Assembly: GCF_011043545.1 (NCBI RefSeq)
Contig: NZ_JAAKGP010000005.1
Span: forward strand, 248,001 to 312,000
From: Rhodobacter sp. SGA-6-6
Lineage (GTDB): Bacteria; Pseudomonadota; Alphaproteobacteria; Rhodobacterales; Rhodobacteraceae
Direction: 5' to 3'
Length of the DNA: 64,000 nucleotides
Shown here: in pieces, positions 5,271 to 64,000 of the stretch
Layout: every line of letters starts with the position of its first letter
Position numbering within the stretch: position 1 is the first letter of the stretch
The notes under the pieces: generated by a model
What the model was told of the DNA's origin: nothing
Databases searched by the model: none
The model's input: only the letters and a program-made list of their open reading frames with translations
Position numbers and translations under genes: made by a program

Positions 5271-5480
5271 ACGAAGGCTATCGCCTTCGTCACATCCCGA
5301 CGTATCCCCCTTGTCCCGGCCGGGCCCCAAAAGGCCCGGCCAGCGCCCGCCCCGCCCCCGGCGGGCGCTTCTCGCCCGCCGGGTCGGGCGCTGGCCTCTC
5401 GGGGTTTGGCGCCGCCATCGTTTCCGGGTGAAGCCATTCGCACGGGCGGGGGCGAGGCAGTGCCTCGCCTTCTCCCGCCC
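5271..5480 (+). repeat. Multi-hairpin intergenic element, copy A
   Basis: Canonical orientation. Hairpin 1 is at 5271-5290 (ACGAAGGC/GCCTTCGT; the G-to-A and C-to-T changes relative to other copies preserve pairing). Hairpin 2 follows with arms GGCCGGGCC/GGCCCGGCC, then a long GCGCCCG-rich hairpin with alternative partners, and hairpin 4 at 5451-5469 (GGCGAGGCA g TGCCTCGCC). It lies between two convergent genes. Confidence 0.9.
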
Positions 5481-5534
5481 GGGCCGGGACAGCGCAGCGG
5501 TTCCGGGCCGATGGCCTCCGCCCGACGTCCCCGC

Positions 5535-7715
5535 TCAGGCCTCTTCCAGCGGCAGGTGGACGCGGATCGTGGTGCCGTCGCCGGGCTCGCTTTCCACCTC
5601 GATCCTGCCGTTCATCATCGAGACCAGCCGGGCGACGATGGCCATGCCCAGGCCGGTGCCGCCGAAGCGGCGGGTGACGCTGCCGTCGGCCTGCTCGAAG
5701 GCGTTGAACATGCGGGCGACCTGCGCCTCGGTCATGCCGATGCCGGTGTCGCGCACCTCGATGACGAAGGGCTTGCCCGGCGGGCAGGAGAACGTGACGG
5801 TGATCTCGCCCGCCTCGGTGAACTTGATGGCGTTGCTGATCAGGTTCTGCAGGATCTGCATCAGCCGGTGCGGGTCGCCGATGCGGGGCAGGTCGGAGCG
5901 GCCGCTGGTGTAGATGTCCAGCTCGATCCCCTTCTCCTCGGCCGAGACGCTGTAGAGGTCCTGCACCCGGGCGGCGATCTGGTCGGGGCGGAACTGCGTC
6001 GCCTCCAGCTCCAGCTTGCCGGCCTCGATCTTCGACATGTCCAGCACGTCGTTCAGGATGCCCAGCAGAAGCTCGCCCGAATGGCGGATGGTGGACAGCA
6101 TCTTCTTCTGCTCGGCGTCGCGCACCAGCCGGTCCAGCACCTCGGCCATGCCGAGCACCCCGTTCAGCGGCGTCCTGATCTCGTGGCTCATGTTGGCGAT
6201 GAACTGCGACTTGCTGCGGCTTTCGGATTCCGACTTCGCCACCATGGCGCGCAGGTCCTGCTCGGTGCGGTGCTGGTCGGTCACGTCGACCAGCGAGACC
6301 ACCACCCGTTCGTCCGACTCCGCCGAGGTCAGCAGCGTGGCGTTGACCGAGATCATCCGCCGCTCGCCGTCGCCGCGGCGCAGGAAGGACAGGCGGCGGT
6401 TGCGCACCGGCTTCTGGTTGACCAGCATCCGGGCGAAGGCGTGCCCCAGCCCCACCGCCGGCGCGCCCTCGGGCGTCTGGAAGCCCCAGGCCGGATCGCC
6501 CAGCGTGACCTCGCGCAGGAGAAGCCCCTCGATCCCCAGGATGCGCCCGGCCTCGGAGTTGATGAACATGATGGTCCCGCGCATGTCCAGCGCGATGATG
6601 CCGGACAGGCTGGTCTCCATCAGCAGGGCGAGGAAGTCGCGCTCGTTCTGCAGCGCGCCGGAGAGGAAGCGCCGCTCGGTCGAATCCTGCAGCCGCACCA
6701 CCCAGCCGACCACCGGCCGCTCGGTGCCGAAGGGCTGGCGCACCGGGAAGACGTCGGGGTCGTAGAAGCGGTTGTGCAGGAACAGCATCTGCCGGGTCGG
6801 CTGGCCCGAAGTGGCGATGATCTCGGCGATGAAGGTCTGCAGCTCGAAGTTCCCCTCGGCCTCGCCCTCGGTCCCGGGGGCCTCGGCGTCGAGCACCGCC
6901 CGCGCCGCGGGGTTGCGGCCGACCTGGTTGCCGGCCAGGTCCAGCACGATCACCGGATCGGGGACGTTGTAGAACAGCAGGTCCTTGGCGATGGCGGCCA
7001 CATCCATCAGCCGGTTCTGCGCGATCATCAGCGACAGGATGATCAGTGTGGCGGAAAAGGCGAAGGGGGTGGGGTCGAAGCCCTTCAGCGTCACGCCGAA
7101 GACGATGTAGAGCAGGTTCGACAGCCCCGGCGCCAGCGTCACCAGCAGAAGCCCGACGAAGAAGGTGCGGTGCTGCGGCGGCGCCAGGACCGAGCTGCGG
7201 ACCGTCACGAAGATCGCCCGCAGCAGGAAGACGTAGATATAGGCCGCCAGCAGGTAGAAGAACGGGCCGTGGTCGAACTGCACCGAGGCCCGGCCCGCGG
7301 TCTCGACCATCCGGGTGTCGGGGCCGTAGAACATGTGGTGCCAGTCGTTGGTGAAGGCGGCCAGCCCTGCCGCCAGCGGGCCGCCGATCAGCGGCAGCAG
7401 GCGCTCGCGCGGCATTTTCCGCGAGATGCCCCGGGCGTAGTCGGTCAGGAAGAAGGCCCAGGCCGTGGGCAAGAGCACGATCACCGGCCAGGCCGCCTTG
7501 GCCCAGAACACCTTGCACTCCAGCCGGGTCATGTTCAGCTCCATGAACACCGCGACCAGCCAGCAGAGCATGGCTATGAGGGCGATCACGAAGTAGCGGC
7601 GGCCGAAGAAATAACCGCGCGAGGTCCAGTAGAGCAGGAAGGCGATTCCCAGCCAGAAGAACAGCGTCACGCCGCCCATCTCGTCGATCCGGGAAACCTC
7701 AAGGCATTCCAGCAT
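5535..7715 (-). CDS. Membrane histidine kinase with 7TM input and PAS domains
   Basis: About 726 residues. The N-terminal ~215 residues form a multi-helix membrane region of the histidine-kinase 7TM type (first segment VTLFFWLGIAFLLYW). Two PAS-like domains follow at roughly 240-360 and 370-490, then HisKA with H511 in MSHEIRTPLNG and a HATPase domain with NLISNAIKF, DTGIGM and GTGLGMAI. There is no receiver. I chose the ATG at 7715 because AGGTGAGG lies 6 nt upstream; a GTG at 7733 is possible. It is the third gene of a minus-strand operon after a response regulator and an HPt protein, so the three probably act together. Confidence 0.93.
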   Translation of the reverse strand: MLECLEVSRIDEMGGVTLFFWLGIAFLLYWTSRGYFFGRRYFVIALIAMLCWLVAVFMELNMTRLECKVFWAKAAWPVIVLLPTAWAFFLTDYARGISRKMPRERLLPLIGGPLAAGLAAFTNDWHHMFYGPDTRMVETAGRASVQFDHGPFFYLLAAYIYVFLLRAIFVTVRSSVLAPPQHRTFFVGLLLVTLAPGLSNLLYIVFGVTLKGFDPTPFAFSATLIILSLMIAQNRLMDVAAIAKDLLFYNVPDPVIVLDLAGNQVGRNPAARAVLDAEAPGTEGEAEGNFELQTFIAEIIATSGQPTRQMLFLHNRFYDPDVFPVRQPFGTERPVVGWVVRLQDSTERRFLSGALQNERDFLALLMETSLSGIIALDMRGTIMFINSEAGRILGIEGLLLREVTLGDPAWGFQTPEGAPAVGLGHAFARMLVNQKPVRNRRLSFLRRGDGERRMISVNATLLTSAESDERVVVSLVDVTDQHRTEQDLRAMVAKSESESRSKSQFIANMSHEIRTPLNGVLGMAEVLDRLVRDAEQKKMLSTIRHSGELLLGILNDVLDMSKIEAGKLELEATQFRPDQIAARVQDLYSVSAEEKGIELDIYTSGRSDLPRIGDPHRLMQILQNLISNAIKFTEAGEITVTFSCPPGKPFVIEVRDTGIGMTEAQVARMFNAFEQADGSVTRRFGGTGLGMAIVARLVSMMNGRIEVESEPGDGTTIRVHLPLEEA

Positions 7716-7793
7716 TCCGGGCCTCACCTGCACCGCCGGGCAGCTGAGGGGCCGGCGCCGTCCATCCTGCGGTTGTCACCCTGCATCCGGCCG

Positions 7794-8156
7794 TCAGCCT
7801 GCTTTCCCGGCCTGGGCATCGTGCAGCGCGGCGTGAAACCGGGCGACGGTCGTGTCGAACTCCCGCACATCCAGCGGGCCGGATTTCAACCCCAGGCTGA
7901 GGCTCTGGTCAAGCTCGGCCGCCACTTCGCCGAGGGAGCGGAAGCCCAGTGTGGCGGCGACGCCCGCCACGCGGTGGGCGATCATCATGATGCCGGTCAG
8001 CGCCTGCTGCCGGCCTGCCGGTTCCTCGGCCGCCCGGCGCAGCAGCGCCAGCTCGAAGATGTGGGATTCGACCGCATCCAGAAAGCGCCGCCGGATCGGG
8101 GCAAGCGCATCGGCGGGCGGGCCGGGAACCCGGTTGTCGGGACCGAGGACAAGCAT
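7794..8156 (-). CDS. HPt (histidine phosphotransfer) protein
   Basis: 120 residues, mostly helical. The HPt signature IAHRVAGVAATLGFRSLG puts the phospho-accepting histidine at 61. HPt proteins pass phosphate between receivers, so its presence beside two kinases and four receivers implies a multistep phosphorelay. The start is 12 nt after the stop of the upstream response regulator, and the kinase starts 78 nt downstream, so the three form one transcription unit. The signature is clear, although the usual lysine after the histidine is replaced (HRVAG rather than HxLKG). Confidence 0.85.
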   Translation of the reverse strand: MLVLGPDNRVPGPPADALAPIRRRFLDAVESHIFELALLRRAAEEPAGRQQALTGIMMIAHRVAGVAATLGFRSLGEVAAELDQSLSLGLKSGPLDVREFDTTVARFHAALHDAQAGKAG

Positions 8157-8168
8157 GGCCGACCCCGC

Positions 8169-10890: not shown

Positions 10891-11975
10891 AAGCCGCCAT
10901 CTTCCACGGCCCGCACCGGCCGCTGACCCTCGGCGAGGTGCAGGTCGCCGACCCCGGCCCGCGCGAGGTTCTGGTGCGGACCATGGCTGCGGGCCTGTGC
11001 CATTCCGACCTGCATTTCATCGACGGCACCTATGCGCTGGACGCCCCCGCGGTGCTGGGGCACGAGGTTTCGGGCATCGTCGAGAAGGTGGGCGAGGGGG
11101 TGATCGGGCTGCGGCCCGGCGATCACGTCATCGGCTGTCTCTCGGTCTTCTGCGGCCATTGCGGCCATTGCACCAGCGGCCGGCCCTACAGCTGCGACCA
11201 TCAGCACGAGACCCGGCGCGGACCGCAGGAGCCGCCGCGGCTGTCGCAGGCCGGCGCCCCGGTCGGCCAGTTCTACGAGCTGTCGGCCTTCGCCGAGTTG
11301 ATGCTGGTCCACGAACACGCGCTGGTGAAGATCCGCTCCGACATGCCCTTCGACCGCGCCGCGCTGATCGGCTGCGCGGTGACCACCGGCATGGGCGCGG
11401 TGATCAACACCGCAAGAGTGGAGGTCGGCGCCACCGTCGCGGTGATCGGCTGCGGCGGCGTCGGGTTGTCGGCGGTCAACGGCGCCGCCATCGCCGGGGC
11501 CGGGCGGATCATCGCGGTGGACATCAGCGGTGCCAAGCTGGACCTCGCCCGCGACTTCGGCGCCACCGATACTGTCGACGCCTCGGGCTGCGACCCGGTA
11601 GAGGCGGTGCGCGACCTCACGCGGGGCGGGGTGCAGTATTCCTTCGAGGCGCTCGGCCTGAAGCGCACCTCGGAACAGGCCTTCGAGATGCTGGCGCCCT
11701 CGGGCATTGCCACGATCATCGGCATGGTGCCCGAGGGCCAGCGGCTGGAGATCGACCCGGTGTCGCTGCTCTACGACCGCCGGTTGCAGGGGTCGAACAT
11801 GGGGTCGAACCGCTTCCGGGTCGACATGCCGCGCTATGTCGACTTCTACCTCTCCGGCCGGCTGCATCTGGACCGGATGATCTCGCGCCGGCTGCCGCTG
11901 GCCGCCATCAACGAGGGCTTCGACGACCTGCGCGCCGGCCGGGTCGCCCGGTCGGTCATCACCTTCGATCCATGA
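10887..11975 (+). CDS. Zinc-dependent alcohol dehydrogenase
   Basis: 362-residue medium-chain dehydrogenase/reductase. It keeps catalytic zinc ligands (LCHSD cysteine and GHE histidine), the structural-zinc cysteine cluster CGHCGHCTSGRPYSC (about 88-102), and a Rossmann fold with GCGGVG followed by an acidic VDIS, indicating NAD preference. An insert rich in Arg/Pro follows the cysteine cluster, as in class III-like and NDMA-linked alcohol dehydrogenases. The start overlaps the stop of the TetR-hydrolase fusion, so the two are translationally coupled. It may oxidise the alcohol released by that hydrolase; the substrate is not readable from the sequence. Confidence 0.9.
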   Translation: MKAAIFHGPHRPLTLGEVQVADPGPREVLVRTMAAGLCHSDLHFIDGTYALDAPAVLGHEVSGIVEKVGEGVIGLRPGDHVIGCLSVFCGHCGHCTSGRPYSCDHQHETRRGPQEPPRLSQAGAPVGQFYELSAFAELMLVHEHALVKIRSDMPFDRAALIGCAVTTGMGAVINTARVEVGATVAVIGCGGVGLSAVNGAAIAGAGRIIAVDISGAKLDLARDFGATDTVDASGCDPVEAVRDLTRGGVQYSFEALGLKRTSEQAFEMLAPSGIATIIGMVPEGQRLEIDPVSLLYDRRLQGSNMGSNRFRVDMPRYVDFYLSGRLHLDRMISRRLPLAAINEGFDDLRAGRVARSVITFDP

Positions 11976-12004
11976 CTGCCACCACAACCAACGGGGAGAA
12001 GACC

Positions 12005-12934
12005 ATGAAGACGCTTGCCGCCACCCTGATCGCCTGCCTTGCCGCCGGCACCGCGCTTGCCGATGTCGAAAGCTGCAGGACCATCCGCCTGGCCAACCTG
12101 GGCTGGACCGACATCCTGCTGACCGACGCCACCGCCGAGGTGATCCTGAACGCGCTCGGCTACGAGGCGGGCAACACCCAGCTCGGCCTCGGCATCGCCT
12201 ATACCTCGCTGCAGGAGGGGAACATGGACGTGTTCCAGGGCAACTGGCGCCCGGTGCAGGACGAGAACTTCAAGGAGTTCTTCGACAAGGGCTGGGTCGA
12301 GGTCCTGGGCAAGAACCTTGAGGGCGCGAAGTTCACCCTGGCGGTGCCGGCCTATGTCGCCGAGGGCGGGATCAAGACCTTCGCCGACGTGGCCGCCAAC
12401 CGCGAGATGTTCGAGGGCAAGATCTACGGCATCGAGCCGGGGTCGAACGACTACCTGCTGGATATGGTGGCGCAGGGGCTTTACGGCTTCGACGCCAGCT
12501 GGGAGGTGGTGGAGACCAGCGAGACCGGGATGCTGTCGCAGGTGGAGCGCGCGGTGTCGCGCGAGGAGCCGATCGTCTTCCTCGGCTGGGAGCCGCATCC
12601 GATGAACATCGACTACCAGATCGCCTATCTCGGCGGCGGCGACGAGGTGTTCGGCGCGGATTACGGCGGCGCCACGGTCTATACGATCTCGCGCCCCGGC
12701 TTCGCGGCGGAATGTCCGAATGCGGCCAGGCTGTTCTCGCAGCTGGCCTATACGCTGGACTACGAGAACTATGGGATGCGCCGCATCCTGGCCGACGGGC
12801 TGGAGCCGCAGGAGGCCGCCCGCGCCCAGCTGGCCGAGATGCCGCAGCTGCTGGAGGGCTGGCTGGCGGGCGTGACCACCTTCGACGGGCAGGAGGGGCT
12901 GCCGGTGGTGAAGGCGGCGCTCGGGATCGAGTAG
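12005..12934 (+). CDS. choX: ChoX-type choline-binding periplasmic protein
   Basis: 309 residues with a Sec signal peptide ending near ALA. The mature start DVESCRTIRLANLGWTDI, the GNWRP segment and VFLGWEPHPMN closely match the choline-binding ChoX family, including tryptophans that form the aromatic box for trimethylammonium. The start is supported by GGGGAGAAG just upstream. No permease or ATPase accompanies it, so it must work with a transporter elsewhere, possibly the ProVW pair at 35-37 kb. Position behind the BetI-like fusion and the dehydrogenase indicates a choline or related quaternary-amine module. Confidence 0.9.
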   Translation: MKTLAATLIACLAAGTALADVESCRTIRLANLGWTDILLTDATAEVILNALGYEAGNTQLGLGIAYTSLQEGNMDVFQGNWRPVQDENFKEFFDKGWVEVLGKNLEGAKFTLAVPAYVAEGGIKTFADVAANREMFEGKIYGIEPGSNDYLLDMVAQGLYGFDASWEVVETSETGMLSQVERAVSREEPIVFLGWEPHPMNIDYQIAYLGGGDEVFGADYGGATVYTISRPGFAAECPNAARLFSQLAYTLDYENYGMRRILADGLEPQEAARAQLAEMPQLLEGWLAGVTTFDGQEGLPVVKAALGIE

Positions 12935-12945: not shown

Positions 12946-13134
12946 CGGGCGGGAAAAGGCGAGGCACTGCCTCGCCCCCGCCCGTGCGCAGCGGTTCAAT
13001 CGGAGACGGTGGCGGCACGAGCCCCTGTGAGGCCAGCGCCCGCCGAGGGGCGGGCGGGCGCTGGCCGGGCCTTGGAGGCCCGGCCGGGACAAGGGGAAGC
13101 GGTGCGCTGTGGCGAAGGCACGCGCCTTCGCCAG
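12946..13134 (-). repeat. Multi-hairpin intergenic element, copy B
   Basis: Reverse orientation. Hairpin 4 is at 12958-12976, hairpin 2 has arms GGCCGGGCC/GGCCCGGCC, and hairpin 1 is at 13111-13132 (GGCGAAGGC loop ACGC GCCTTCGCC). It sits between the convergent choX and the DGC-family gene. Confidence 0.9.
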
Positions 13135-13166: not shown

Positions 13167-13547
13167 CTAACCCCGCGCAGCCGCTTCCGCCGCCAGCGCT
13201 TCCGCCATCTCCTCCAGCACCCGCTCGGCCTCTTCCGGGTCGAAGTCGGTCTGGTAGCGCTTCCTCACCCCGTGGTCGGACAGCAGGTGATACTCCGAAG
13301 GTGCCACCCCGTGGCGGGCGAGGGTGTTCTTCACGCAGGCCAGCGCGCAGCCGTCGATGGCGATGATCGGGCGGCCGGAGGTGGCCACCCGCACCAGCTT
13401 GGGCACGTCGCCGCCGACGCCGGCGATGCAGGACATCTCGGCCAGCCCGCGCCGGTCCAAGGCGACCGCCAGCCAGTTCGCCATCTGCGCCGCGCTGGAG
13501 CAGCCGGAGCAGGAATAGACCAGGGGCAGATGAGCGCGGGAGGACAT
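13167..13547 (-). CDS. Putative zinc-binding protein, DGC family
   Basis: 126 residues from the ATG at 13547; a GTG at 13583 would add 12. It carries the hallmarks of the DGC putative zinc-binding family: an N-terminal YSCSGCSSAAQ cluster, a central CIAG and the signature IDGCALACVKN. The function of the family is not established; such genes often accompany metal or redox genes. It lies divergent to a MarR regulator whose candidate operator is about 90 bp away. Neither start has a good ribosome binding site, so the exact N-terminus is uncertain. Confidence 0.75.
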   Translation of the reverse strand: MSSRAHLPLVYSCSGCSSAAQMANWLAVALDRRGLAEMSCIAGVGGDVPKLVRVATSGRPIIAIDGCALACVKNTLARHGVAPSEYHLLSDHGVRKRYQTDFDPEEAERVLEEMAEALAAEAAARG

Positions 13548-20358: not shown

Positions 20359-21044
20359 TGAGTGACGACAAGCCGCAATCCTCCTACGCTTCGCCGCCCT
20401 GCATGGCGGGCGAGGTGGCGCCGGATTACTTCGACCCGCTGGCGGTGGACCCGCAGCAGGCGGTGGACGTGGCGCGCTGGCGGAAGGCGAAACGTGCCGA
20501 ATTGCTGGCGATGCGCGCCGCGCTGCCGGTGACGGAACTCCAGGCCATCGCGAAGGGCATCGCCGCCGGGCTGGACCGGGTGCTGGAGGAGCTGCTGCCC
20601 GATGTGCGCGGCAAGGTGATCTCCGGCTTCTGGCCGATCAAGGCCGAGCCCGACCTGCGCTTCTGGCTGGCATCGCTGGCGGAGCGCGGCGCGATCACCG
20701 CCCTGCCGGTGGTGGAGACCCGCTTCGCGCCGCTGGTCTTCCGCCCGTGGAAGCCCGGCGACCCGATGGTGCGCGGCGACTGGAACATTCCGGTGCCGAC
20801 GACCACCGAGACGGTGCAGCCCGACCTTGCCCTTGCGCCTCTGGTCGGCTGGGACCGGCAGGGGTATCGGCTCGGCTACGGCGGCGGCTATTTCGACCGC
20901 ACGCTGGCGGCGCGGAAGCCGATGGCCGTGGGCATCGGCCTGTCCGCCGCGCGGATCGGCAGCATCTTCCCGCAGCCGCACGACATCCCGCTGGACCGCA
21001 TCGTCACCGAGGAGGGGGTGCAGGAGATTTCCCGGCCGGGTTGA
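20355..21044 (+). CDS. 5-formyltetrahydrofolate cyclo-ligase family protein
   Basis: 229 residues (start ATG 20355 or 20358). The core has the ligase features: K-R-K near 43-47 for substrate and ATP, VISGFWPIKAEPD, and the signature YRLGYGGGYFDRTL. It would convert 5-formyl-THF to 5,10-methenyl-THF using ATP. An extra ~40-residue N-terminal segment with YASPPCMAGEV and DYFDP precedes the usual start and is not part of the known fold. It is last in the operon, before intergenic element C. Confidence 0.9.
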   Translation: MMSDDKPQSSYASPPCMAGEVAPDYFDPLAVDPQQAVDVARWRKAKRAELLAMRAALPVTELQAIAKGIAAGLDRVLEELLPDVRGKVISGFWPIKAEPDLRFWLASLAERGAITALPVVETRFAPLVFRPWKPGDPMVRGDWNIPVPTTTETVQPDLALAPLVGWDRQGYRLGYGGGYFDRTLAARKPMAVGIGLSAARIGSIFPQPHDIPLDRIVTEEGVQEISRPG

Positions 21045-21369
21045 GGCCGGGGCTGCGGCCATGGCGAAGGCCATCGCCTTCGCCACAGCGCACCATCTCA
21101 ACCTGGCCCGGCCGGGCCTCAATGGCCCGGCCAGCGCCCGCCCGCCCCCTGGCGGGCGCTTCTCGCCCGCCCGGGCGGACGCTGGCCTCTCCCGGTCTCG
21201 TGCCGCCAATGTCTCCGGGTGAACCCATCCGCACGGGCGGGGGCGAGGCAGTGCCTCGCCTGATCCCGCCCGGACGCACAGCGGCGGAAAGGTCTTGCGC
21301 GGGGTCGCCGGGCGGGCTCACATGGGCGGCGGAACGCGCGGCCTTCGCCGCCACGACAGGGAAATCGGA
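21045..21369. other. Intergenic region holding element C
   Basis: 325 bp. Element C fills 21061-21272. The remaining ~95 bp to the FAH-family start is GC-rich, contains AGGGAAATCGGA as ribosome binding site, and shows no clear promoter. Confidence 0.7.
21061..21272 (+). repeat. Multi-hairpin intergenic element, copy C
   Basis: Canonical orientation. Hairpin 1 is at 21063-21084 (loop CATC), hairpin 2 has GGCCGGGCC/GGCCCGGCC, and hairpin 4 is at 21242-21260. It lies between two genes on the same strand. Confidence 0.9.
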
Positions 21370-22209
21370 ATGAAACTGCTGCGTTACGGGCCCCGCGGGG
21401 CGGAGAAGCCGGGGATTCTGGATGGCGAGGGCCGCATCCGCGACCTCAGCGGCATCGTCGGCGACATCGCCGGCGAGGTGCTGGTGCATCTGGACCGCCT
21501 CGCCGCGCTGGACCCGGAGACGCTGCCGCTGGTGGAAGGGAACCCGCGCCTCGGTGCTTGCGTCGGCGGGACGGGGAAGTTCATGTGCATCGGCCTCAAC
21601 TACGCCGACCACGCCGCCGAAAGCGGGCTGAAGGTGCCGCCCGAGCCGGTGCTGTTCCTGAAGGCCAATTCGGCGATCTGCGGCCCCGACGACCCGATCA
21701 TCATCCCCCGCGGCTCGGTCAAGACCGACTGGGAGGTGGAGCTTGCCGTCGTCATCGGCAAGCCGGCGAAATACGTGACCGAGGCCGAGGCGATGGACCA
21801 TGTCGCCGGCTATTGCGTGGTGAACGACGTGTCGGAGCGGTCCTATCAGGCCGAACGCGCGGGCCAGTGGACCAAGGGGAAAAGCTGCGACAACTTCGGC
21901 CAGACCGGCCCCTGGCTGGTGACGAAGGACGAGGTGCCGGACCCGCAGGCGCTGGACATGTGGCTGACCGTGGACGGCCGGACCATGCAGCAGGGATCGA
22001 CCAGGACCATGGTCTACGGCGTGGCCTTCCTGGTCTCCTATCTCAGCCAGTTCTTCACCCTGCATCCGGGCGACATCATCTCGACCGGCACGCCCCCCGG
22101 GGTGGGGCTGGGGATGAAGCCGCCGCGCTACCTGAAGCCCGGCGAGGTGGTGGAGCTGGGGATCGAGGGCCTGGGCCGGCAAAGGCAGCTTTGCGTGGCG
22201 GACGGGTGA
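21370..22209 (+). CDS. Fumarylacetoacetate hydrolase-family protein
   Basis: 279 residues. FAH-family fold with metal-binding acidic residues in the DWEVELAVVIGK strand, the C-IGLNYADHAAES helix, KANSAICGPDD and STGTPPGVGLGM. Members hydrolyse or decarboxylate 2-oxo acids with a beta-diketone-like bond (acylpyruvases, fumarylpyruvate hydrolase, ureidoglycolate-lyase-like). The exact substrate cannot be read here. It is monocistronic, flanked by elements C and D. Confidence 0.9.
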   Translation: MKLLRYGPRGAEKPGILDGEGRIRDLSGIVGDIAGEVLVHLDRLAALDPETLPLVEGNPRLGACVGGTGKFMCIGLNYADHAAESGLKVPPEPVLFLKANSAICGPDDPIIIPRGSVKTDWEVELAVVIGKPAKYVTEAEAMDHVAGYCVVNDVSERSYQAERAGQWTKGKSCDNFGQTGPWLVTKDEVPDPQALDMWLTVDGRTMQQGSTRTMVYGVAFLVSYLSQFFTLHPGDIISTGTPPGVGLGMKPPRYLKPGEVVELGIEGLGRQRQLCVADG

Positions 22210-22286: not shown

Positions 22287-22301
22287 ATCCGCGGTGTCCT
22301 T

Positions 22302-22511
22302 GGCGAAGGCCGTCGCCTTCGCCACAGCGCGACGTTGCAACCCTCCCGGCCGGGCCCCAAAGGCCCGGCCAGCGCACGCCCCGCCCTTGGGCCAAGCGCT
22401 TCTCGCCCGCCGGGTCGGGCGCTGGCCTCTCGGGGTTCAGGGCTGCCACCGTCTCCGGTTGACATGTCCCGCACGGGCGGGGCGAGGCAGTGCCTCGCCT
22501 GTCCCCGCCCG
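22302..22511 (+). repeat. Multi-hairpin intergenic element, copy D
   Basis: Canonical orientation. Hairpin 1 is at 22302-22323 (loop CGTC) and hairpin 4 at 22481-22499. The middle hairpin is the CTTGGGCCAAG variant shared with copies E and G. Confidence 0.9.
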
Positions 22512-22514: not shown

Positions 22515-23960
22515 CTACCGCGCCAATCCCAGCAGCCTGCCCACATCCAGATGCGCCTCCAGATGGTCGGCGAGATCGTCCAGCACCGCCTCCACCCCCG
22601 CCGCATAGGCCAGGCCCGAGGCCGAGGCGCCGAGGCCGGCGAGGAAGGCCGCGCGGAAGCTGTCGTCGGCGAACATCCCGTGCAGGTAGCTGCCGGTCAC
22701 CCGCCCGTCGGGCGAGGTGGCGCCCTCGGGCCTCCCCTCCAGCAGGGCGAAGGGGCGGGCGCAGTCCGGGCCTTCGGTGCGGCCGATGTGGATCTCGTAG
22801 CCCGAGACCGGCAGCCCGCTGGCGCGATGCACGGCGGCCGATCGGGTCAGCCGCTTGTCCGCCGTCATCACCGTCGCCACGTCCAGCAACCCGAGGCCCG
22901 GCGTCTCGCCCGCCGGCCCCTCGATCCCCCCGGGGTCCGAGACCGAGCGCCCCAGCATCTGGTAGCCGCCGCAGATGCCGAGGATGTGGCCGCCCCGCCG
23001 CCGATGCGCCAGCAGGTCGATGTCCCAGCCCTGCTGGTGCAGGAAGGCGAGGTCGCCGCGGGTGGATTTCGACCCCGGCACGATCACCAGCCGGGCGTCG
23101 CCCGGGATGGCGCGGCCGGGCAGCACCATCTCCACCGCCAGCCCCGGCTCCTGCTTCAGCGGATCGAGATCGTCGAAATTGGCGATCCGCGACAGGGCGA
23201 GGCAGGCCACCTTGACCGGCCCGCCGATGCCGTTGCCGGCGAGGTCCAGCGCATCCTCGGCCGGCAGGCGGGCGGCGCCAGGGAACCACGGCACCACGCC
23301 GAAGCCCGGCCAGCCGGTGCGGTCGGCGATCATCCGATAACCGTCGTCGAAGAGCCGCGGGTCGCCGCGGAACTTGTTGACGAAGAAGCCCGCGACCAAC
23401 GCGGCATCCTGCGGGTCGAGGATGGCTTGCGTCCCCACGATCTGCGCGATCACCCCGCCGCGGTCGATGTCGCCCGCCAGCACCACCGGCACCCCGGCCG
23501 CCCGGGCGAAGCCCATGTTGGCGATGTCGTTCGCCCGCAGGTTCACCTCGGCCGGGCTGCCCGCGCCCTCGACGATCACCAGATCGGCGCGCGCCTGAAG
23601 CCGCCGGAAGCTTTCCAGCACCGATCCCATCAGGCCGGGCTTCAGCGCCGCATACTCCGCCGCCCGGGTGGTGGTCAGCCGCTTGCCCTGCACCACCACC
23701 TGCGCGCCGACGTCGGTTTCCGGCTTCAGCAGCACCGGGTTCATGTCGGTGTGCGGGGCGACGCCGCAGGCCAGCGCCTGCAATGCCTGCGCCCGGCCGA
23801 TCTCGCCGCCGTCCTCGGTCACCGCGGCGTTGTTCGACATGTTCTGCGGCTTGAAGGGCAGCACCTTCAGCCCCCGCCGCAGGGCGGCCCGGCAGAGCCC
23901 GGCCACGATCAGCGACTTGCCGACATTGGAGCCGGTCCCCTGGATCATCAGCGCGGGCAT
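22515..23960 (-). CDS. cobQ: Cobyric acid synthase
   Basis: 481 residues. ATP-dependent amidation of adenosylcobyrinic acid a,c-diamide side chains using glutamine. It has the N-terminal P-loop-like ATPase GTGSNVGKS followed by [12 protein letters not shown], and a C-terminal triad-type glutaminase with the cysteine in [11 protein letters not shown] and SYLHGMF histidine. Full length. GGAGGGG precedes the ATG. No other cobalamin genes adjoin it, but a cobalamin-type methyltransferase (MttB family) lies at 46.8 kb. Confidence 0.97.
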
Positions 23961-32708: not shown

Positions 32709-32923
32709 CGGGCGGGATCAGGCAAGGCACTGCCTTGCCCCCGCCCGTGCGCGGGGGTTGCACCCGGAGACGGTGCGGCACGAGACCCCGAGAGGCCAGC
32801 GCCCGACCCGGCGGGCGAGAAGCGCCTGGCCCAAGGGCGGGGCGGGCGCTGGCCGGGCCTTGAGGGCCCGGCCGGGACAAGGGGAAGCGTTGTGCTGTGG
32901 CGAAGGCACGCGCCTTCGCCATG
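32709..32923 (-). repeat. Multi-hairpin intergenic element, copy E
   Basis: Reverse orientation. Hairpin 4 (32721-32739) reads GGCAAGGCA c TGCCTTGCC, a compensated change from GGCGAGGCA/TGCCTCGCC. Hairpin 1 is at 32899-32920. The middle variant is shared with D and G. It lies between convergent genes. Confidence 0.9.
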
Positions 32924-43033: not shown

Positions 43034-43246
43034 TTGGGCGGGAGAAGGCGAGGCACTGCCTCGCCCCGCCCGTGCGCGGCGACTCAACCGGAGACGGTGG
43101 CGTCACGAGACCCGGAGAGGCCAGCGCCCGACCGGGCGGGCGAGAAGCGCCCGCCGAGGGCGGGGCGGGCGCTGGCCGGGTGCTTTGAGCACCCGGCCGG
43201 AAAAGGTGAAGCGTTGCGCTGTGGCGAAGGCGATGGCCTTCGCCAG
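43034..43246 (-). repeat. Multi-hairpin intergenic element, copy F
   Basis: Reverse orientation. Hairpin 4 is at 43047-43065 and hairpin 1 at 43223-43244. Hairpin 2 (43174-43198) has arms GGCCGGGTGC/GCACCCGGCC, altered from the usual GGCCGGGCC yet fully complementary. Confidence 0.9.
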
Positions 43247-43281: not shown

Positions 43282-44658
43282 TCACGCCACCGCCAGTTCC
43301 GTCGCCAGCCGCTGCACCTGGTCGCGGATGTCGGGGATGGCGGTGATCTCCCAGAAGGCGGCGCGGGAGACCGGGCCGATGGCCAGCAGGCGGTCCGCCG
43401 GGCGGCCCCGGCCATCGACCAGGCGGCAGCGCGTGTCCACCTCCAGCCCGATCCGCAGCGGATCGACCCGCGCCCGGCCCCGCGCCAGCAGGTCGGCGAT
43501 CAGGGCCGAGGCATTGCGGCCGGGATCGCGCCGGATGCCGCGGCAGTCGAAGATGCGGGCGGCGGGGATCGAGGCGCCGACCTCGCCGCCGAAAAGGCGG
43601 ATGCGGGCCACCGGACCCGAGGGCAGCAGCTCCGCCCCCAGGAATTCCGCCCGTTGCAGCCGCAGCTGGCCCGAGGCCAGCGCCGCATGGACCACCGCTT
43701 CCGAGGCCGGCGGCACCCGGTGGCGATGCACGTCCCACCAGGCCGCGGCATGGCGCAGGAAGCGGGCGCGCTCCACCGGCGGCAGGCTGCGCCAGATCGC
43801 CTGCACATGCGGGCGGATGCCGTCCACCGCGTCGCGCCAGCTGCCGCCCTGCGCCTCGGCCCGCCGCACCAGGGCCCTTGCCCAGCCGGCCAGCGCGCTG
43901 ACCGGCGCGCCGAAGGGCACCTCGGCGCGCGACACCGGCAGCGGGGCCCCGGCGGCATGGGCGCGCGGGACCAGGCCGCGGCGCGAGACCGCCAGGATCT
44001 CGCCGCGATGGCCGGATTTCAGCAGCGTCACCACCCGGTCCACCATGGAAAGGCCGGAGCCGACGAGGATCACCCTGCCGTCGGGATCGGGCGGCGCCGG
44101 CGCGTCCCAGGCCCCGCTCAGCCCCGGGGCGGGCGCCTCGTGGACATGGCCGGTCGCCAGCACGGCGAGGTCGCCGATCACGGTCTGGCCGTCGGCCAGG
44201 CGGACCACCACGCCGCGGGCGCTGTCCTGCAGCCGCAGCGCCTCCTGCCGGACGATGCGCAGCCGCTGCGGCACCGCCTCGCCGGCCCAGGGGGCCAGGA
44301 GGTCGGCGAGATAGGCGCCATAGGTGGCGCGGCTGACGAAACATTCGGGCGTCGCGCCCTCCGCCCGCGCCGCCAGCCAGTCGTGGAAATGCCCGGGCCG
44401 GTCGGGAAAGGCGCTCATGTTGCGCACCCGGGTGTTCAGCAGGTGGTCCGGGTCGGCGGTGGCATAGGCAAGGCCGGGGCCGGGCAGCCGGGCGGGCTCC
44501 AGGAGCGTCACCCGGAAGGCGCGGTCGGGGCGCGACAGCAGCTGCACCGCCATCAGCACCCCGCTGGCCCCGCCGCCGATCACCACCACATGCGGCTGCG
44601 GCGGCAGCCAGCCCAGGCCCGGCGGCCGGGCGGCGGCGGGCTGGTCCGGCCGGGTCAT
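43282..44658 (-). CDS. FAD/NAD(P)-binding protein (COG4529-like)
   Basis: 458 residues. An N-terminal FAD-binding fold (HVVVIGGGASGVLMAVQLL, VTLLEPA), a second dinucleotide site (RVILVGSGLSMVDRVVTLL) and FDCRGIRRDPGRN near the end match the NAD-binding_9/COG4529 flavoprotein group. Several members are induced by nutrient or redox stress; the substrate is unknown. Its ATG overlaps the stop of a 48-residue membrane protein gene, suggesting the two work together, perhaps membrane recruitment of the flavoprotein. Confidence 0.85.
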   Translation of the reverse strand: MTRPDQPAAARPPGLGWLPPQPHVVVIGGGASGVLMAVQLLSRPDRAFRVTLLEPARLPGPGLAYATADPDHLLNTRVRNMSAFPDRPGHFHDWLAARAEGATPECFVSRATYGAYLADLLAPWAGEAVPQRLRIVRQEALRLQDSARGVVVRLADGQTVIGDLAVLATGHVHEAPAPGLSGAWDAPAPPDPDGRVILVGSGLSMVDRVVTLLKSGHRGEILAVSRRGLVPRAHAAGAPLPVSRAEVPFGAPVSALAGWARALVRRAEAQGGSWRDAVDGIRPHVQAIWRSLPPVERARFLRHAAAWWDVHRHRVPPASEAVVHAALASGQLRLQRAEFLGAELLPSGPVARIRLFGGEVGASIPAARIFDCRGIRRDPGRNASALIADLLARGRARVDPLRIGLEVDTRCRLVDGRGRPADRLLAIGPVSRAAFWEITAIPDIRDQVQRLATELAVA

Positions 44659-45534: not shown

Positions 45535-45999
45535 ATGATCACGCAGAAGATGAAATACGCGCTGAAGGCGCTTCTGGCGCTGGCCGACGAGGCGGCGAAG
45601 GAGAAGCCGCAGGCGCTGACCATCGAGGAGATCGCCCGCCGCTCCGGCACGCCGAAGCGGTTCCTGGAGCATATCCTGCTGGAGGTGCGCAATGCCGGCG
45701 TGATCGCCTCCACCCGCGGCAGGGCCGGCGGCTACAGCCTGATCAAGAAGCCGGCGGAGATTTCCATCTCCGAACTGCTGCGCACCATCGACGGCCCGAT
45801 CGCGCCGCTGCCCTGCCTGTCGCGCCGGGCCTACCAGCGCTGCGAGGATTGCTCCGACGAGGCCGCCTGCCGCATCCGCAAGGTCTTCGCCGAGGTGTTC
45901 TGGTCCTACCTGCTGATCATCGACTCGCTGACCCTGGAGGACATGCTCCGCCAGGGCAGCATCGCAGATCAGGTCCTCGGCGTGGAAGCGCAGGGGTAA
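45535..45999 (+). CDS. Rrf2-family transcriptional regulator
   Basis: 154 residues. A winged helix (MKYALKALLALADEA, SGTPKRFLEHILLEVRNAGV, STRGRAGGYSL) is followed by a cysteine set PCLSRRAYQRCEDCSDEAACRIR. Four cysteines would support an Fe-S cluster or thiol switch, but the spacing differs from IscR and NsrR. It is divergent from the hydrolase/membrane protein/flavoprotein operon with a 151-bp shared region, so it probably controls it. Confidence 0.9.
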   Translation: MITQKMKYALKALLALADEAAKEKPQALTIEEIARRSGTPKRFLEHILLEVRNAGVIASTRGRAGGYSLIKKPAEISISELLRTIDGPIAPLPCLSRRAYQRCEDCSDEAACRIRKVFAEVFWSYLLIIDSLTLEDMLRQGSIADQVLGVEAQG

Positions 46000-46022: not shown

Positions 46023-46238
46023 CCGGGCGGGAACAGGCGAGGCACTGCCTCGCCCCCGCCCGTGCGGGACAATTGCACCCGGAAACGGTTGCAGTCCTAG
46101 ACCCGGGGAGGCCAGCGCCCGACCCGGCGGGCGAGAAGCGCCTGGCCCAAGGGCGGGGCGGGCGCTGGCCGGGCCTTTGGGGCCCGGCCGGATGGGTGGA
46201 AGCGTTGCACGGTGGCGAAGGCGATGGCCTTCGCCAAA
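46023..46238 (-). repeat. Multi-hairpin intergenic element, copy G
   Basis: Reverse orientation. Hairpin 4 is at 46036-46054 and hairpin 1 at 46214-46235 (loop GATG). The middle hairpin is of the D/E type. It follows the Rrf2 gene on the same strand. Confidence 0.9.
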
Positions 46239-58327: not shown

Positions 58328-58813
58328 CTATTCCGCCTGGTCGGCGGGCTTGGCGTTCAGCAGGCCGTATTTCTCTTCGCCCAGCTTGTCGAACAGGCCC
58401 AGCTGGGTTTCGAGGAAGTCGATATGGCCTTCCTCGTCCTGGATCAGGTCGTCGAAGAGGGCGCGGGAGACGTAATCGCCGACCGCATCGCAATGCCGCC
58501 GCGCCTCGATATACAGCGTGCGGGCGTCATGCTCGCCGGCCAGGTCGCATTCCAGCGTCTCGCGGATGGTCTGGCCGATGCGCAACGGGTCCAGCTTCTG
58601 CAGGTTCGGATGGCCCTCCAGGAAGATGATCCGGGCGATCAGCCGGTCGGCGTGGTGCATCTCCTCGATCGACTCGGCGCGCGACTTGGCGGCGAGGTGA
58701 CCGAATCCCCAATCCTCCTGCAGCCGGAAGTGCAGCCAGTATTGGCTGACCGCCGTCAGCTCGGACCGGAGTGCAGCGTTCAGATATTCAATGACTTTCG
58801 CGTCGCCCTTCAT
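58328..58813 (-). CDS. bfr: Bacterioferritin
   Basis: 161 residues. All ferroxidase ligands sit at canonical numbers: E18, E51, H54, E94, E127 and H130. M52 is the haem-binding methionine, so it is a haem-containing bacterioferritin assembling as a 24-mer for iron storage. The usual N-terminal [12 protein letters not shown] fixes the start at 58813. Its ferredoxin partner Bfd is upstream on the same strand, separated by intergenic element H. Confidence 0.97.
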
Positions 58814-59231
58814 GGCCGTTCCTTTCGCGCTGTGCAGGACTGTTCCCCGGCTTCGGCAGTCCGCCGTGGCTTGGATGGCGCGAAAGTAATCGCGCCGCCC
58901 GCCCTTGTCCATGGGGCGGCGACGACAATCGTAGATTTTTCAATACCTTAGCAAAGAAGTAAGGTTTGTCGGCGGAAGTTCCGCGGTCTGGCCGGGCGGG
59001 AAAAGGCGAGGCACTGCCTCGCCCCGCCCGTGCGGACGGGGTCACCCGGAGACAGTGGTGACGCAAGACCATGAGAGGCCAGCGCCCGTCCGGGCGGGCG
59101 AGAAGCGCCCGCCAGGGGGCGGGCGGGCGCTGGCCGGGCCTTTGGGGCCCGGCCGGGACAAGGGGAAGCGTTGCGCCATGGCGAAGGCACGCGCCTTCGC
59201 CAGAGGGGCCGTCGCAATCAGGAATACATCC
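58814..59231. other. Intergenic region: bfr promoter area plus element H
   Basis: 418 bp. Element H covers 58991-59203. An AT-rich patch at 58931-58968 includes ACCTTA (58945-58950), 9 bp, TAAGGT (58960-58965), a candidate operator or promoter region for bfr. Iron control is expected but no known Fur, Irr or RirA box is certain by eye. Confidence 0.5.
58991..59203 (-). repeat. Multi-hairpin intergenic element, copy H
   Basis: Reverse orientation. Hairpin 4 is at 59005-59023, hairpin 1 at 59180-59201 (loop ACGC), and hairpin 2 has the standard arms. It lies between bfd and bfr inside the iron gene cluster. Confidence 0.9.
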
Positions 59232-59483
59232 CTAGCGCCGGGCGATCACCGCCAGCCGGTTGCGCAGCATCGGCGGCGCCTCTCCGGCGGGGACGGGGAA
59301 GCTGTCGCGCGCCCGCATCGTGTCCAGAAGCAGCGGCATGCAGCCGCCGCAATCGGCCCGCTTGCCGAGCGCATGGTAGATCTTGCCCGGGGTGATGACG
59401 GTATCGGGGTCCGAGGCGCGCATCCAGTCCACCGCGGCGCGGATGTCGTGGTCGGTGATGCTCTGGCAGTGGCAGACGATCAT
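59232..59483 (-). CDS. bfd: Bacterioferritin-associated ferredoxin
   Basis: 83 residues. [2Fe-2S] protein with ligands in MIVCHCQ and ADCGGCMPLL. It docks on bacterioferritin and reduces the stored ferric core so iron can leave. A C-terminal extension (~25 residues, PVPAGEAPPMLRNRLAVIARR in part) goes beyond the E. coli length. It starts 19 bp after the stop of imelysin 1. Confidence 0.93.
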   Translation of the reverse strand: MIVCHCQSITDHDIRAAVDWMRASDPDTVITPGKIYHALGKRADCGGCMPLLLDTMRARDSFPVPAGEAPPMLRNRLAVIARR

Positions 59484-61312: not shown

Positions 61313-62437
61313 TTGACCCAATCCTCCACCCTCAGCCGCCGCCGCTTCCTGAAGGCCTCGGCGGCCGGCGCCGGCCTGCTGGCCGCGCCCGCGCTCGTCT
61401 CCTCCCGCGTGCTCGCCTCTTCGGGCGAGCTGAACTTCGTCGGCTGGGCGGGCTATCCCGTGCTGGCCGAGAAGGTCTTCCCCGCCTTCACCGCCGCCAC
61501 CGGCATCACGGTGAACTTCAAGGAACTGCCCGACCAGGACACCATGTTCGGCGAGGCCAAGGTGGCGCTGCAGTCGGGCGGCATCGACGTGATCGAGCCG
61601 ACGATCGACCGCGTCGGGGCCTGGGCATCGAACGGCTTGCTCGGCGCCTTCGACGAATCGAAGCTGGCGATGGACAACTACCTGCCCGGCCTGGCCGACG
61701 GCGCCGCGGGCGAGCGCAGCCGGGTCGACGGCCAGCTGGTCTATGTGCCGTCGAACTGGGGCACCGAGTCGCTGGTGGTCAACGAGGCCGATGCCAAACT
61801 GTCCGACCCGCCCTCGCTGGGCGACCTCTTCAACCCCGAGAACCCCAGCGTGGTGCGCCCGCATTCGGCGCTGGCGGCGATGGGGCGCTGGCTGGATGCG
61901 CAGGGCAAGCTGCCGCGGCCCTGGATCGACGGCTACAGCGACATGGGCGCCATGGTCGAGCTGTGGGACATCGCGCTGGCCGAGGCGATCAAGGTCAAGG
62001 GCAACATCGTGCAGTGGTGGACCGGCGAGAACGACGCCAACGCCGGCTTCACCGCCAACGGCGCCACCATCGGCCTGTGCTGGGACGCCACCGGCTACAA
62101 CCTGCGCAAGGACGGCTACCGCTATGTCGCCCCGACCGAGGGCGCCTTCGCCTGGCATCAGGGCTTCATCATGATGAAGAACGCCACCAACGTCGACCAG
62201 TCGCATGAGTTCGTCAAATGGGTCTCCACCCCGGAAGGGGCGGCGCATTGGGCCTCGGCCTTCTCGTCCAACCCGGTGGGCAAGGGCGCGTCGGACCTGC
62301 TCGATCCCGAAGTGGCCGCCTATTACAACGGCACCTTCAACGACGAGGCGCTGTCGAAGCTGTGGTGGTGGCCCGACCAGTCGGCCGACTTCCTGGCCAA
62401 GCGGGCCGAGTATTCGGACAAATACAAGGCGGCGTAA
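61313..62437 (+). CDS. Tat-exported PotD-like ABC binding protein 1
   Basis: 374 residues if translation starts at TTG 61313, which aligns it with its paralogue; an ATG at 61271 would add 14 residues. Twin-arginine signal SRRRFLKASAAGAGLLAAPA. The mature part is a type-2 binding protein (GELNFVGWAGYPVLAEKVFP, GTESLVVNEADAKLSDPPSLG, ATIGLCWDATGYN, KLWWWPDQSADFL) of the spermidine/putrescine group. A folded, Tat-exported binding protein is unusual for this group. No permease or ATPase is nearby downstream in the window. Confidence 0.88.
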   Translation: MTQSSTLSRRRFLKASAAGAGLLAAPALVSSRVLASSGELNFVGWAGYPVLAEKVFPAFTAATGITVNFKELPDQDTMFGEAKVALQSGGIDVIEPTIDRVGAWASNGLLGAFDESKLAMDNYLPGLADGAAGERSRVDGQLVYVPSNWGTESLVVNEADAKLSDPPSLGDLFNPENPSVVRPHSALAAMGRWLDAQGKLPRPWIDGYSDMGAMVELWDIALAEAIKVKGNIVQWWTGENDANAGFTANGATIGLCWDATGYNLRKDGYRYVAPTEGAFAWHQGFIMMKNATNVDQSHEFVKWVSTPEGAAHWASAFSSNPVGKGASDLLDPEVAAYYNGTFNDEALSKLWWWPDQSADFLAKRAEYSDKYKAA

Positions 62438-62822
62438 GCGGACGCAGGGTCCGGGCGGGAGAAGGCGAGGCATTGCCTCGCCCCGCCCGTGCGGACGGGT
62501 TCACCCGGAAACGGTGTCCGCGAGAAACCCGGTGAGGCCAGCGCCCGACCGGGCGGGCGAGAAGCGCCCCGCCAGGGGGCGGGCGGGCGCTGGCCGGGAC
62601 TTATGGTCCCGGCCGGGAAGGTTGAACCGTTGCGATGTGGCGAAGGCACGCGCCTTCGCCAGACCGTTCCTTTCAGGTCAGTGTCGGCCAATGCATCGAC
62701 GGCGGGCGGCGGGGATTCCCCCGCCGCCCGTTTTTCGTTCACCGTTCCGCCATCGGCGCGTTACACAGGACTGGCAAGGCTGCGCCCACCCGCGCGCCGT
62801 TGCGCAGATGAAGGAGAGCGTG
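62438..62822. other. Intergenic region holding element I
   Basis: 385 bp between two tandem paralogues. Element I covers 62452-62662. The rest includes GGCGGGCGGCGGGG-rich sequence and a GGAGAG ribosome binding site before the second gene; a TTACACAGGACTGGCAAGGC stretch (62761-62780) may be promoter. Confidence 0.6.
62452..62662 (-). repeat. Multi-hairpin intergenic element, copy I
   Basis: Reverse orientation. Hairpin 4 is at 62464-62482 (loop T) and hairpin 1 at 62639-62660. Hairpin 2 (62590-62612) has arms GGCCGGGAC/GTCCCGGCC, a compensated variant. Confidence 0.9.
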
Positions 62823-63941
62823 ATGACCACCCGACTGAACCGCCGCAGATTCCTGCAGACCTCCGCCGCCGGGGCGGGCCTTCTGGCCGCGCCCGCGCTG
62901 GTCTCCTCCCGCGCGCTCGCCTCTTCGGGCGAGCTGAATTTCGTCGGCTGGGCGGGCTACCCGGACCTGGCCGAGAAGATCCTGCCCGCCTTCGAGGCCG
63001 CGACCGGGATCAAGGTCAACTTCAAGGAGGTCCCCGACCACGAGACGATGTATGCCGAGACCAAGATCTCGATGGAGACCGGCGGCATCGACCTGATCGA
63101 GACCACCATCGACCGCTGGGGCAGCTACAACGCCAACGGCCTCTTGCAGCCCTGGGACGAGACCAGGGCCGACCTGAACGCCTATCTGCCGGGGATGCTG
63201 GACGGCGAGGCGGGCGAGATGTCGCGGCTGGAAGGCGCGCTGATGATCCTGCCCTCGGTCTGGGGCACCGAGTCGCTGGTGGCCTCGGAGGCCGACGCCA
63301 AGCTGTCGTCGCCGCCCTCGCTGGGCGACCTGTTCAACCCCGAGAACCCCGCCGTGCTGCGCCCGCATTCGACGCTGGCCGCCATGGGCCGCTGGCTGGA
63401 GGCGCAGGGCAAGCTGCCGAAGCCCTGGCGCGAGGGCTACCGCGACATGGCGGTGATGACCGAGCTGTGGGACATCGCGCTGGCCGAGGCGATCAAGGCC
63501 AAGGGCAACGTGGTGCAATGGTGGTCGGGCGAGAACGAGGCGGTGGCCGGCTTCCAGGCCAACGGCGCGGTGATCGGCCTGTGCTGGGATTCGACCGGCT
63601 TCAACGTCCGCAACGACGGCTACAAATACATCGCCCCGGTCGAGGGCGCCTTCGCCTGGAACCAGGGCTTCTCGCTGGTGAAGGGGGCGAAGAACGCCGA
63701 TGCCGCGCTGGAGCTGGCGAAGTTCGTCGCCACCCCGCGGGCCTCGGCCGACTGGGCCACCGCGTTCAAGGCCAACCCGGTGGCCAAGGGCGGGCCGGAG
63801 CTGATGGAGCCGGAGATCGCCGCCTATTACGCCGGCACCTTCGACGAGGCGGCGCTGAAGTCGCTGTGGTGGTGGCCCGAGCAGGGCGCCGAATTCGTCG
63901 CCAAGCGCGGCGAATATGCCGACAAATACAAGGCGGCCTGA
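62823..63941 (+). CDS. Tat-exported PotD-like ABC binding protein 2 (paralogue)
   Basis: 372 residues. Twin-arginine signal LNRRRFLQTSAAGAGLLAAP, and a mature part clearly paralogous to the protein ending at 62437: identical stretches such as ASSGELNFVGWAGYP, PSLGDLFNPENP and the C-terminal ADKYKAA-type end. Differences cluster in the ligand cleft (for example EPTIDRVGAWASNG versus ETTIDRWGSYNANG), so the ligands may differ. AAGGAGAG precedes the ATG. It is probably the result of a tandem duplication; the rest of the transporter may lie just beyond the window. Confidence 0.92.
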   Translation: MTTRLNRRRFLQTSAAGAGLLAAPALVSSRALASSGELNFVGWAGYPDLAEKILPAFEAATGIKVNFKEVPDHETMYAETKISMETGGIDLIETTIDRWGSYNANGLLQPWDETRADLNAYLPGMLDGEAGEMSRLEGALMILPSVWGTESLVASEADAKLSSPPSLGDLFNPENPAVLRPHSTLAAMGRWLEAQGKLPKPWREGYRDMAVMTELWDIALAEAIKAKGNVVQWWSGENEAVAGFQANGAVIGLCWDSTGFNVRNDGYKYIAPVEGAFAWNQGFSLVKGAKNADAALELAKFVATPRASADWATAFKANPVAKGGPELMEPEIAAYYAGTFDEAALKSLWWWPEQGAEFVAKRGEYADKYKAA

Positions 63942-63964
63942 ACGGGTGACGAAGACGGTTTGCC

Positions 63965-64000
63965 GTGGCGAAGGCCATCGCCTTCGCCACAGTGCGATCT
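63965..64000 (+). repeat. Multi-hairpin intergenic element, copy J (cut by window end)
   Basis: Canonical orientation. Hairpin 1 is at 63967-63988 (loop CATC), followed by the usual ACAGTGCGA spacer; the rest is outside the window. Confidence 0.85.

Follow-up and report, generated by a model that had tools for sequence, protein, structure and literature searches.

A family of about 220 four-hairpin repeats behind genes in a Rhodobacter genome, and how it may have spread

How does a bacterial genome come to carry, behind its genes, many diverged copies of one multi-hairpin element, and what keeps the hairpins intact? The question is raised by a 64-kb stretch of DNA from Rhodobacter sp. SGA-6-6 (below, the window; positions 248001-312000 of contig C44 in the genome G000, which comprises 4.29 Mb in 67 contigs), for which an earlier reading of the sequence, here called the original prediction, had listed ten copies of a ~210 bp element with four hairpins. 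All ten are present, with refined coordinates, and the copy that is cut by the window edge is complete in the contig. We favour, with modest confidence, the view that the element is a non-autonomous palindromic repeat, coupled to replication and made mosaic by exchange between copies, that perhaps acts as a 3'-end hairpin. A description of this element family was not found in the literature searched, most of which was seen as search listings.

Anatomy of the family and conservation of its stems

The motif of the first hairpin (H1), with up to two mismatches allowed, occurs at 213-214 places in the genome, and a reversed control pattern at none, so the family cannot be ascribed to chance. The 1.65 Mb that were read hold 114 H1 motifs, 111 of them within elements detected by the model, and 117 elements, 105 of which are full length; scaled to the whole genome, the total is about 220 elements. 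The second batch of stretches (393 kb) was picked where copies were already known and is no guide to density. The copies on contig C1 are unevenly spread, with 31 of 37 within the first 350 kb of 674 kb.

The consensus is ~211 bp long, has sharp ends, and contains four hairpins in the fixed order H1-H2/H3-H4. In the orientation of copy A, H1 is formed by TGGCGAAGGC-loop-GCCTTCGCCA and followed by spacer 1, H2 by GGCCGGGCC/GGCCCGGCC, and H3 by an outer stem AGCGCCCG/CGGGCGCT and an inner part GGCGGGCGCTTCTCGCCCGCC, followed by spacer 2, while H4 reads CGGGCGGG-GGCGAGGCA/TGCCTCGCC-bulge-CCCGCCCG. Copy B lacks the H3 tip, a departure from the claim that all ten copies share the four hairpins. H2 and H3 have GGCC in common, and three strands compete for it; in addition, AGCGCCCGCC is able to pair with GGCGGGCGCT immediately downstream. 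An alternative fold of this kind, which had been suggested for the GCGCCCG block, is compatible with the sequence. Copy A folds better than all of 200 dinucleotide shuffles, both as RNA (z -6.4) and as DNA (z -7.4), and its opposite strand reaches a z of -6.7 as RNA.

Across the 105 full copies, 98.4% of the stem cells are paired, compared with 40-46% when the partners are slid against each other, and the difference between copies amounts to 27.9% in unpaired columns and 2.8% in paired columns. Double changes occupy 26 stem cells in 7 pairs, whereas shuffles yield 3.7 such cells and slid versions no more than 9; most of the 26 come from recurrent H2 subtypes. The four compensated stems singled out by the original prediction (H1 in copy A, H4 in copy E, and H2 in copies F and I) are all there, but the H2 changes in F and I are recurrent subtypes found in many copies and not private changes. 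The subtype said to set copies D, E, and G apart is real (Table 1); the H3-tip pair that it breaks, at columns 107-121, is unpaired in 14 of the 105 copies.

Stems that are replaced but remain paired are also seen in relatives. Four-hairpin copies outside G000 were found in the genomes G011 (three), G010 (one), and G024 (two). The H4 inner stem GGCGAGGCA/TGCCTCGCC is replaced by GGAAACGCA/TGCGTTTCC or GGAAAAGCA/TGCTTTTCC in relatives, and H1 is GGCGGCGAC/GTCGCCGCC or TGCCTCGGC/GCCGAGGCA, in each case with pairing kept, although mismatches are present in some of the replaced stems. One copy in G000 itself (L223:11290) has a G011-like H4 with one mismatch. Many different paired H2 stems occur across the family, as read from 25 loci that include one from G000 and three from congeners, after 17 loci that did not fit the core expression had been dropped and locus repeats skipped. 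Selection on hairpin pairing is supported by the degree of pairing, by the replaced stems, and by the linked H3 columns described below, as the original prediction held, with the reservation that most deviations inside G000 are uncompensated.

The covariance model search that had been proposed, genome-wide and in relatives, was carried out with the H2-H3 core (~85 nt). The core matched in 29 of 100 genomes including G000, with at most 43 candidates scored per genome under strict filters. Within Rhodobacteraceae it matched in 28 of the 59 genomes other than G000, and in none of the 40 genomes from outside. A strict core pattern is found exactly in 12 of 119 other family genomes, and a single genome from elsewhere has a short DNA match to the element. 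Only in G000 was the copy number seen to be high, the H1 motif being present at 0-2 places in 12 congeners. Among 73 copies of the first set, pairwise identity has a mean of 0.80 and a maximum of 0.914, which argues against a recent burst among these copies. A recent burst in one strain, the outcome that the original prediction had set against selection on structure, thus agrees with the high copy number in a single genome but not with the divergence of the copies or with a core that is family-wide. In the genomes G015, G016, and G021, the core matches extend over ~140-150 nt; this longer H2-H3 variant, seen repeatedly in several genera, apparently contains additional bases within the core.

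Position, orientation, and insertion

The position of the element relative to genes was read in 1,258 kb (C1, C23:1-400000, and C44:128001-312000), with gene calls made in this analysis by a caller trained on four window genes with Pfam matches; all of ten predicted window genes that were checked have Pfam matches. The midpoints of all 81 copies in this sample lie outside predicted genes. Copies are present in 38 of the 177 convergent gene pairs, in 40 of the 829 tandem ones, and in 3 of the 178 divergent ones (chi-square p 2e-16), and a second batch, in which 34 of 36 further copies could be classified, gave 11 convergent, 22 tandem, and 1 divergent. The median distance is 32 nt to the neighbouring stop and 120 nt to the neighbouring start. 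The core shows a related distribution in other genera, where 21 loci comprise 7 convergent, 4 tandem, and 0 divergent cases, with 10 not judged.

The direction of the element has no link to that of the genes, being the same in 23 and opposite in 17 of 40 tandem cases (p 0.43). It does, however, track GC skew: with the elements masked from the skew calculation, H1→H4 runs on the G-richer strand of the contig in 92 of 111 copies (p 1e-12, taking copies as independent, and after six short hits were dropped). By contig, the counts on the G-rich strand are 33/36 (C1), 22/26 (C23), 7/7 (C12), 6/8 (C33), 7/7 (C55), 5/6 (C66), 5/5 (C65), and 7/16 (C44). Restricted to the first batch, the count is 62 of 78 (p 1.5e-7); when the second was chosen, the skew was not known, although the strands of some of its copies were. 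The G-rich strand is normally the leading strand, and H1→H4 would consequently lie on the lagging-strand template. Element orientation thus follows GC skew, with C44 as an exception, and through it probably replication.

Insertion is suggested by empty sites. Sequences flanking 116 elements were compared with stretches of G011 that total ~470 kb and with the loci L251 and L063-L083 from other genomes; 17 elements gave any flank hit and four gave both flanks together, all in G011. At these four orthologous gene pairs of the congener, the element is absent in every case, and the gaps measure 92, 125, 117, and 76 bp compared with 406, 449, 394, and 477 bp in G000. The locus L063, where an oxidoreductase 82% identical to that of the window has no element behind its gene, was not counted as an empty site, since the following gene was not shown to be the same. 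No target duplication was evident, as exact flank matches of 2-9 nt are not above shuffles in 73 copies. Searches for plasmid and phage homologues gave no match at E 1e-5, and an exact-pattern scan of IMG/VR gave 0 matches; records close to the genome of the window may be missing from these searches.

Linkage between sites and competing explanations

The copies do not behave as clonal descendants with respect to distant sites. With H3 columns 94, 95, 125, and 129 set aside, the mean r2 over 900 pairs of variable sites separated by 15 nt or more is 0.0130, which equals linkage equilibrium as judged from 30 column permutations (0.0126, standard deviation 0.0007). When clonal families equal in size and comparable in divergence are simulated, the mean r2 is 0.21 (growth) or 0.49 (constant size), the lowest run being 0.136; the comparison is with simple simulations of this kind and not with a second natural repeat family. 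At short range there is linkage, with r2 of 0.275 at 1-2 nt, and the spacers carry recurrent multi-base variants that are combined in many ways. The statement that loops vary freely therefore applies to the overall variability of unpaired columns, but neighbouring loop and spacer positions covary within these variants. The notion that the stems were kept while the spacers mutated after the spread is weakened by the same combinations. The four-gamete test requires at least 38 events over 59 biallelic sites, a number that recurrent mutation can inflate. We read the equilibrium between distant sites as a sign of exchange between copies.

Beyond near neighbours, linkage is seen chiefly at paired positions. 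Among 2,748 column pairs tested, seven at a distance of at least 12 nt have p<1e-5, and four of these connect the H3 columns 94/95-125/129 with a squared association of 0.40-0.75. By our reading of the fold, C94-G125 is replaced there by G94-C125. The remaining pairs (33-47, 42-89, and 148-166 in alignment A2) are weaker and lie outside the four-hairpin model; they may reflect further pairing or chance.

Based on these observations, we propose that the element was inserted at about 220 sites in one Rhodobacteraceae lineage by a process that would be coupled to replication, probably single-stranded on the lagging-strand template, and without target duplication, and that the surviving insertions are almost solely those at 3' ends of genes. 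The hairpins would be maintained by selection on pairing, and short tracts would be swapped between copies through ectopic recombination or template switching, which would produce the mosaics. Placed behind genes in either orientation, the hairpins would probably act as 3'-end structures of Rho-terminated or trimmed mRNAs. In a more specific form, which we put forward tentatively, the ~220 elements would be a recombining population of structured mobile elements at linkage equilibrium, in which tracts of about ten bases are swapped between distant loci, chiefly base-paired positions remain linked beyond near neighbours, and both exchange and insertion are coupled to the fork through a non-Y1 enzyme or through host replication and repair alone.

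Several results weigh against the proposal of a mobile, replication-coupled repeat. The contig of the window, C44, breaks the orientation rule, and with contigs as the unit of counting, 7 of 8 agree with it (p 0.07). The sampled part of C44 (C44:128001-312000) is the only one of the eight contigs with mixed orientation, although its skew is positive, and the exception possibly stems from inversions, a terminus region, or another replicon. The flanks of the empty sites are 74-86% identical, and G000 is longer by ~65-190 bp outside the element, so exact insertion junctions are unreadable. A mobilising enzyme was not found among the Y1 transposases and reverse transcriptases that were looked for: the Y1 family (PF01797) has no match in G000 or its 12 congeners (in a control it matched in 5 of 14 known genomes, E. 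coli included), the one reverse transcriptase in G000 lies in a 3.6 kb locus without the element motif, and there is none in G010 or G011, both of which carry the element. By eye, no terminal inverted repeats are seen, the ends of the element being unrelated hairpins. There is no young copy among the 73, given their maximum identity, and present mobility is not evident. On the separate matter of selection on structure, compensation inside the G000 genome is modest, because 86 of the 132 stem cells that depart from the consensus are broken and 46 are still paired, and because sliding the structure by 3 columns gives the same covariation score (0.023) and as many pair types (20).

A different explanation, which we consider unlikely, is that of a cis-acting RNA element, i.e., a host 3'-end module (a stabiliser of mRNA 3' ends or a bidirectional terminator free of a U tract) that is selected at each site and whose spread is incidental. 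The location of copies behind stop codons and between convergent genes, stems that are ten times less variable than unpaired columns, the strong folding of both strands, and the recurrence of the core behind genes in other genera would all follow from such a role. However, no T run of at least 4 occurs within 10 nt of either outer end in any of the 73 copies (runs behind inner hairpins are not counted), so there is no canonical intrinsic terminator at the element ends, and that candidate was rejected for these positions. Furthermore, orientation tracks GC skew and not gene direction, and both the absence of the element at all four orthologous G011 sites and the scarcity of the H1 motif in congeners count against a host module.

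The pattern of linkage could also arise from a star-shaped tree without exchange, where an ancient, simultaneous spread was followed by independent change at each site, and neighbouring sites changed together through multi-base mutation or local constraint. The lack of any recent pair among the 73 copies and the uncorrelated distant sites agree with this, and with strong transition bias and unequal site rates, simulations yield on average 44 two-allele columns (in 106), close to the 49 observed. The sharing of TTCCCCTTGT by 37 of 105 copies is not decisive, since the commonest 10-mer in matched simulations occurs in 13-21 of 105 copies on average and in up to 37 in one run; an argument that this 10-mer excludes a star tree fell at matched simulated divergence and was dropped. 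Short-range linkage is consequently the main remaining point against it: the star-tree simulation gives an r2 of 0.009-0.017 between neighbouring sites, far below the observed value at 1-2 nt. In addition, transversions account for 28 of the 51 variable columns, a share not expected under strong transition bias. We regard a star tree as improbable. A role in chromosome architecture, as a polar site for a replication, segregation, nucleoid, or topoisomerase factor with its direction selected along the replichore, is very improbable, for although it would suit the orientation bias, the strong and conserved hairpins, and the dispersed intergenic copies, high copy number was found in one species only, with few or no copies in congeners, C44 is an exception, and insertion polarity gives the same bias without any function.

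If the mobile and mosaic repeat is the right description, it is of interest because self-copying repeats would be expected to carry complete haplotypes over from their source copies. Copies that are unlinked beyond ~15 nt offer a handle on ectopic exchange between dispersed repeats in a bacterium, and covariation here becomes unusually clean structural evidence, being less confounded by common descent. What moves such elements is a testable question raised by the orientation bias and the missing transposase.

Copies in the window and comparison with known systems

The ten copies of the window and their neighbouring genes are listed in Table 1. A FAD-dependent oxidoreductase of the window has its closest relatives, among 21 loci, in Rhodobacteraceae (records from its own genome may be left out). 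The two solute-binding-protein genes next to copies I and J are similar at the DNA level (79% over a stretch of 300 nt and 83% over one of 282 nt) and are likely a tandem duplication; copy I lies between them, and copy J follows the gene at 62808-63941. Another small palindrome, GGCGGGGTTCACCCCGCC or GGCGGGGTGAACCCCGCC, has 30 exact occurrences in the 1,258 kb, 23 of them at most 150 bp from an element and 0 inside predicted genes; examples are found in the flanks of C1:68039-68248 (L087) and C1:262051-262260 (L097). This palindrome may be a 3'-end repeat in its own right or a favoured neighbour of the element.

Table 1. Element copies in the window, with positions numbered from its first nucleotide
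Copy	Position	Strand	Structure or subtype	Neighbouring genes
A	5269..5481	+	full element; H1 5269-5292, H2 5318-5341, H3 5338-5396, H4 5443-5481	convergent: 4811-5257 (+, response regulator) / 5535-7715 (-, histidine kinase)
B	12946..13133	-	without H3 tip	11972-12934 (+) / 13167-13547 (-, DGC domain)
C	21062..21272	+		20403-21044 (+), stop 17 nt before the copy
D	22301..22510	+	GGGCC-AAGCGC subtype	21370-22209 (+, FAA hydrolase) / 22515-23960 (-, CobB/CobQ-like)
E	32709..32921	-	GGGCC-AGGCGC subtype; compensated H4 GGCAAGGCA/TGCCTTGCC	31396-32694 (+, FAD oxidoreductase), stop 14 nt before the copy
F	43036..43245	-	H2 subtype GGCCGGGTGC/GCACCCGGCC	tandem: 41716-42960 (-) / 43282-44658 (-)
G	46024..46236	-	GGGCC-AGGCGC subtype	45535-45999 (+, Rrf2), stop 24 nt away
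H	58993..59202	-		58328-58813 (-, ferritin-like) / 59232-59483 (-)
I	62452..62661	-	H2 subtype GGCCGGGAC/GTCCCGGCC	61313-62437 (+, solute-binding protein), stop 14 nt away
J	63966..64000	+	first 35 nt (H1 and part of spacer 1)	behind the stop of 62808-63941 (+)

None of the families in Rfam release 15 scores above its gathering threshold in the window. Below threshold, RF03018 (RT-15 RNA) matches copies A and C with 24.3 and 25.3 bits compared with a gathering score of 82, but the alignment to copy C, the only one shown, skips 111 model positions, and a larger, more tightly filtered search (E up to 1) gave no RT-15 match at eight other loci that each contain an element or its core; RT-15 was therefore rejected. 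The element is not a classical miniature inverted-repeat transposable element either, given the unrelated hairpins at its ends and the lack of target duplication.

The IS200/IS605 elements provide a closer likeness with regard to insertion. PATE-type elements are miniature elements derived from this family. Hairpins at both ends and the lack of target duplication are common to such derivatives and to our element, and the orientation of most copies (7 of 8 contigs by GC skew, C44 excepted) would be the one expected from insertion into the lagging-strand template. Insertion of this kind is described for IS200/IS605 elements in PMC6006769. The element differs in having two extra internal hairpins and in the absence of a Y1 transposase from G000 and the 12 congeners.

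As for the REP/REPIN elements (also BIME), the likeness concerns their palindromic, extragenic, and high-copy nature, the conservation of paired parts, and a preference for 3' flanks. Sections of PMC3733652 place REPs mostly between convergent and same-direction genes, downstream of coding regions, and PMC3116915 treats REPINs as non-autonomous, with REP-associated tyrosine transposases (RAYTs) as their presumed movers. Unlike REPs, which are palindromes of 20-40 bp or inverted doublets, the element here has 211 bp and four hairpins, and its consensus lacks the GTAG/CGTC foot; GTAG/CTAC occurs anywhere in 7 of 73 copies, and CGTC/GACG at an element end in 4 of 73. The polarity relative to GC skew and the unlinked sites seen here were not found described for REPs in the relevant parts of PMC3116915 and PMC3733652. 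Membership in the RAYT/REPIN system was rejected, as there is neither a Y1 transposase in the 13 genomes nor a GTAG/CGTC tag.

A further comparison is with RIME (Rhizobium-specific intergenic mosaic elements), whose mosaics are mosaics of palindrome modules. The likeness is one of description, and RIME come from a different order (Rhizobiales), but they too are dispersed intergenic repeats of Alphaproteobacteria, of unknown function, with conserved sequence and secondary structure (Osteras 1995, as summarised in part of PMC2573895).

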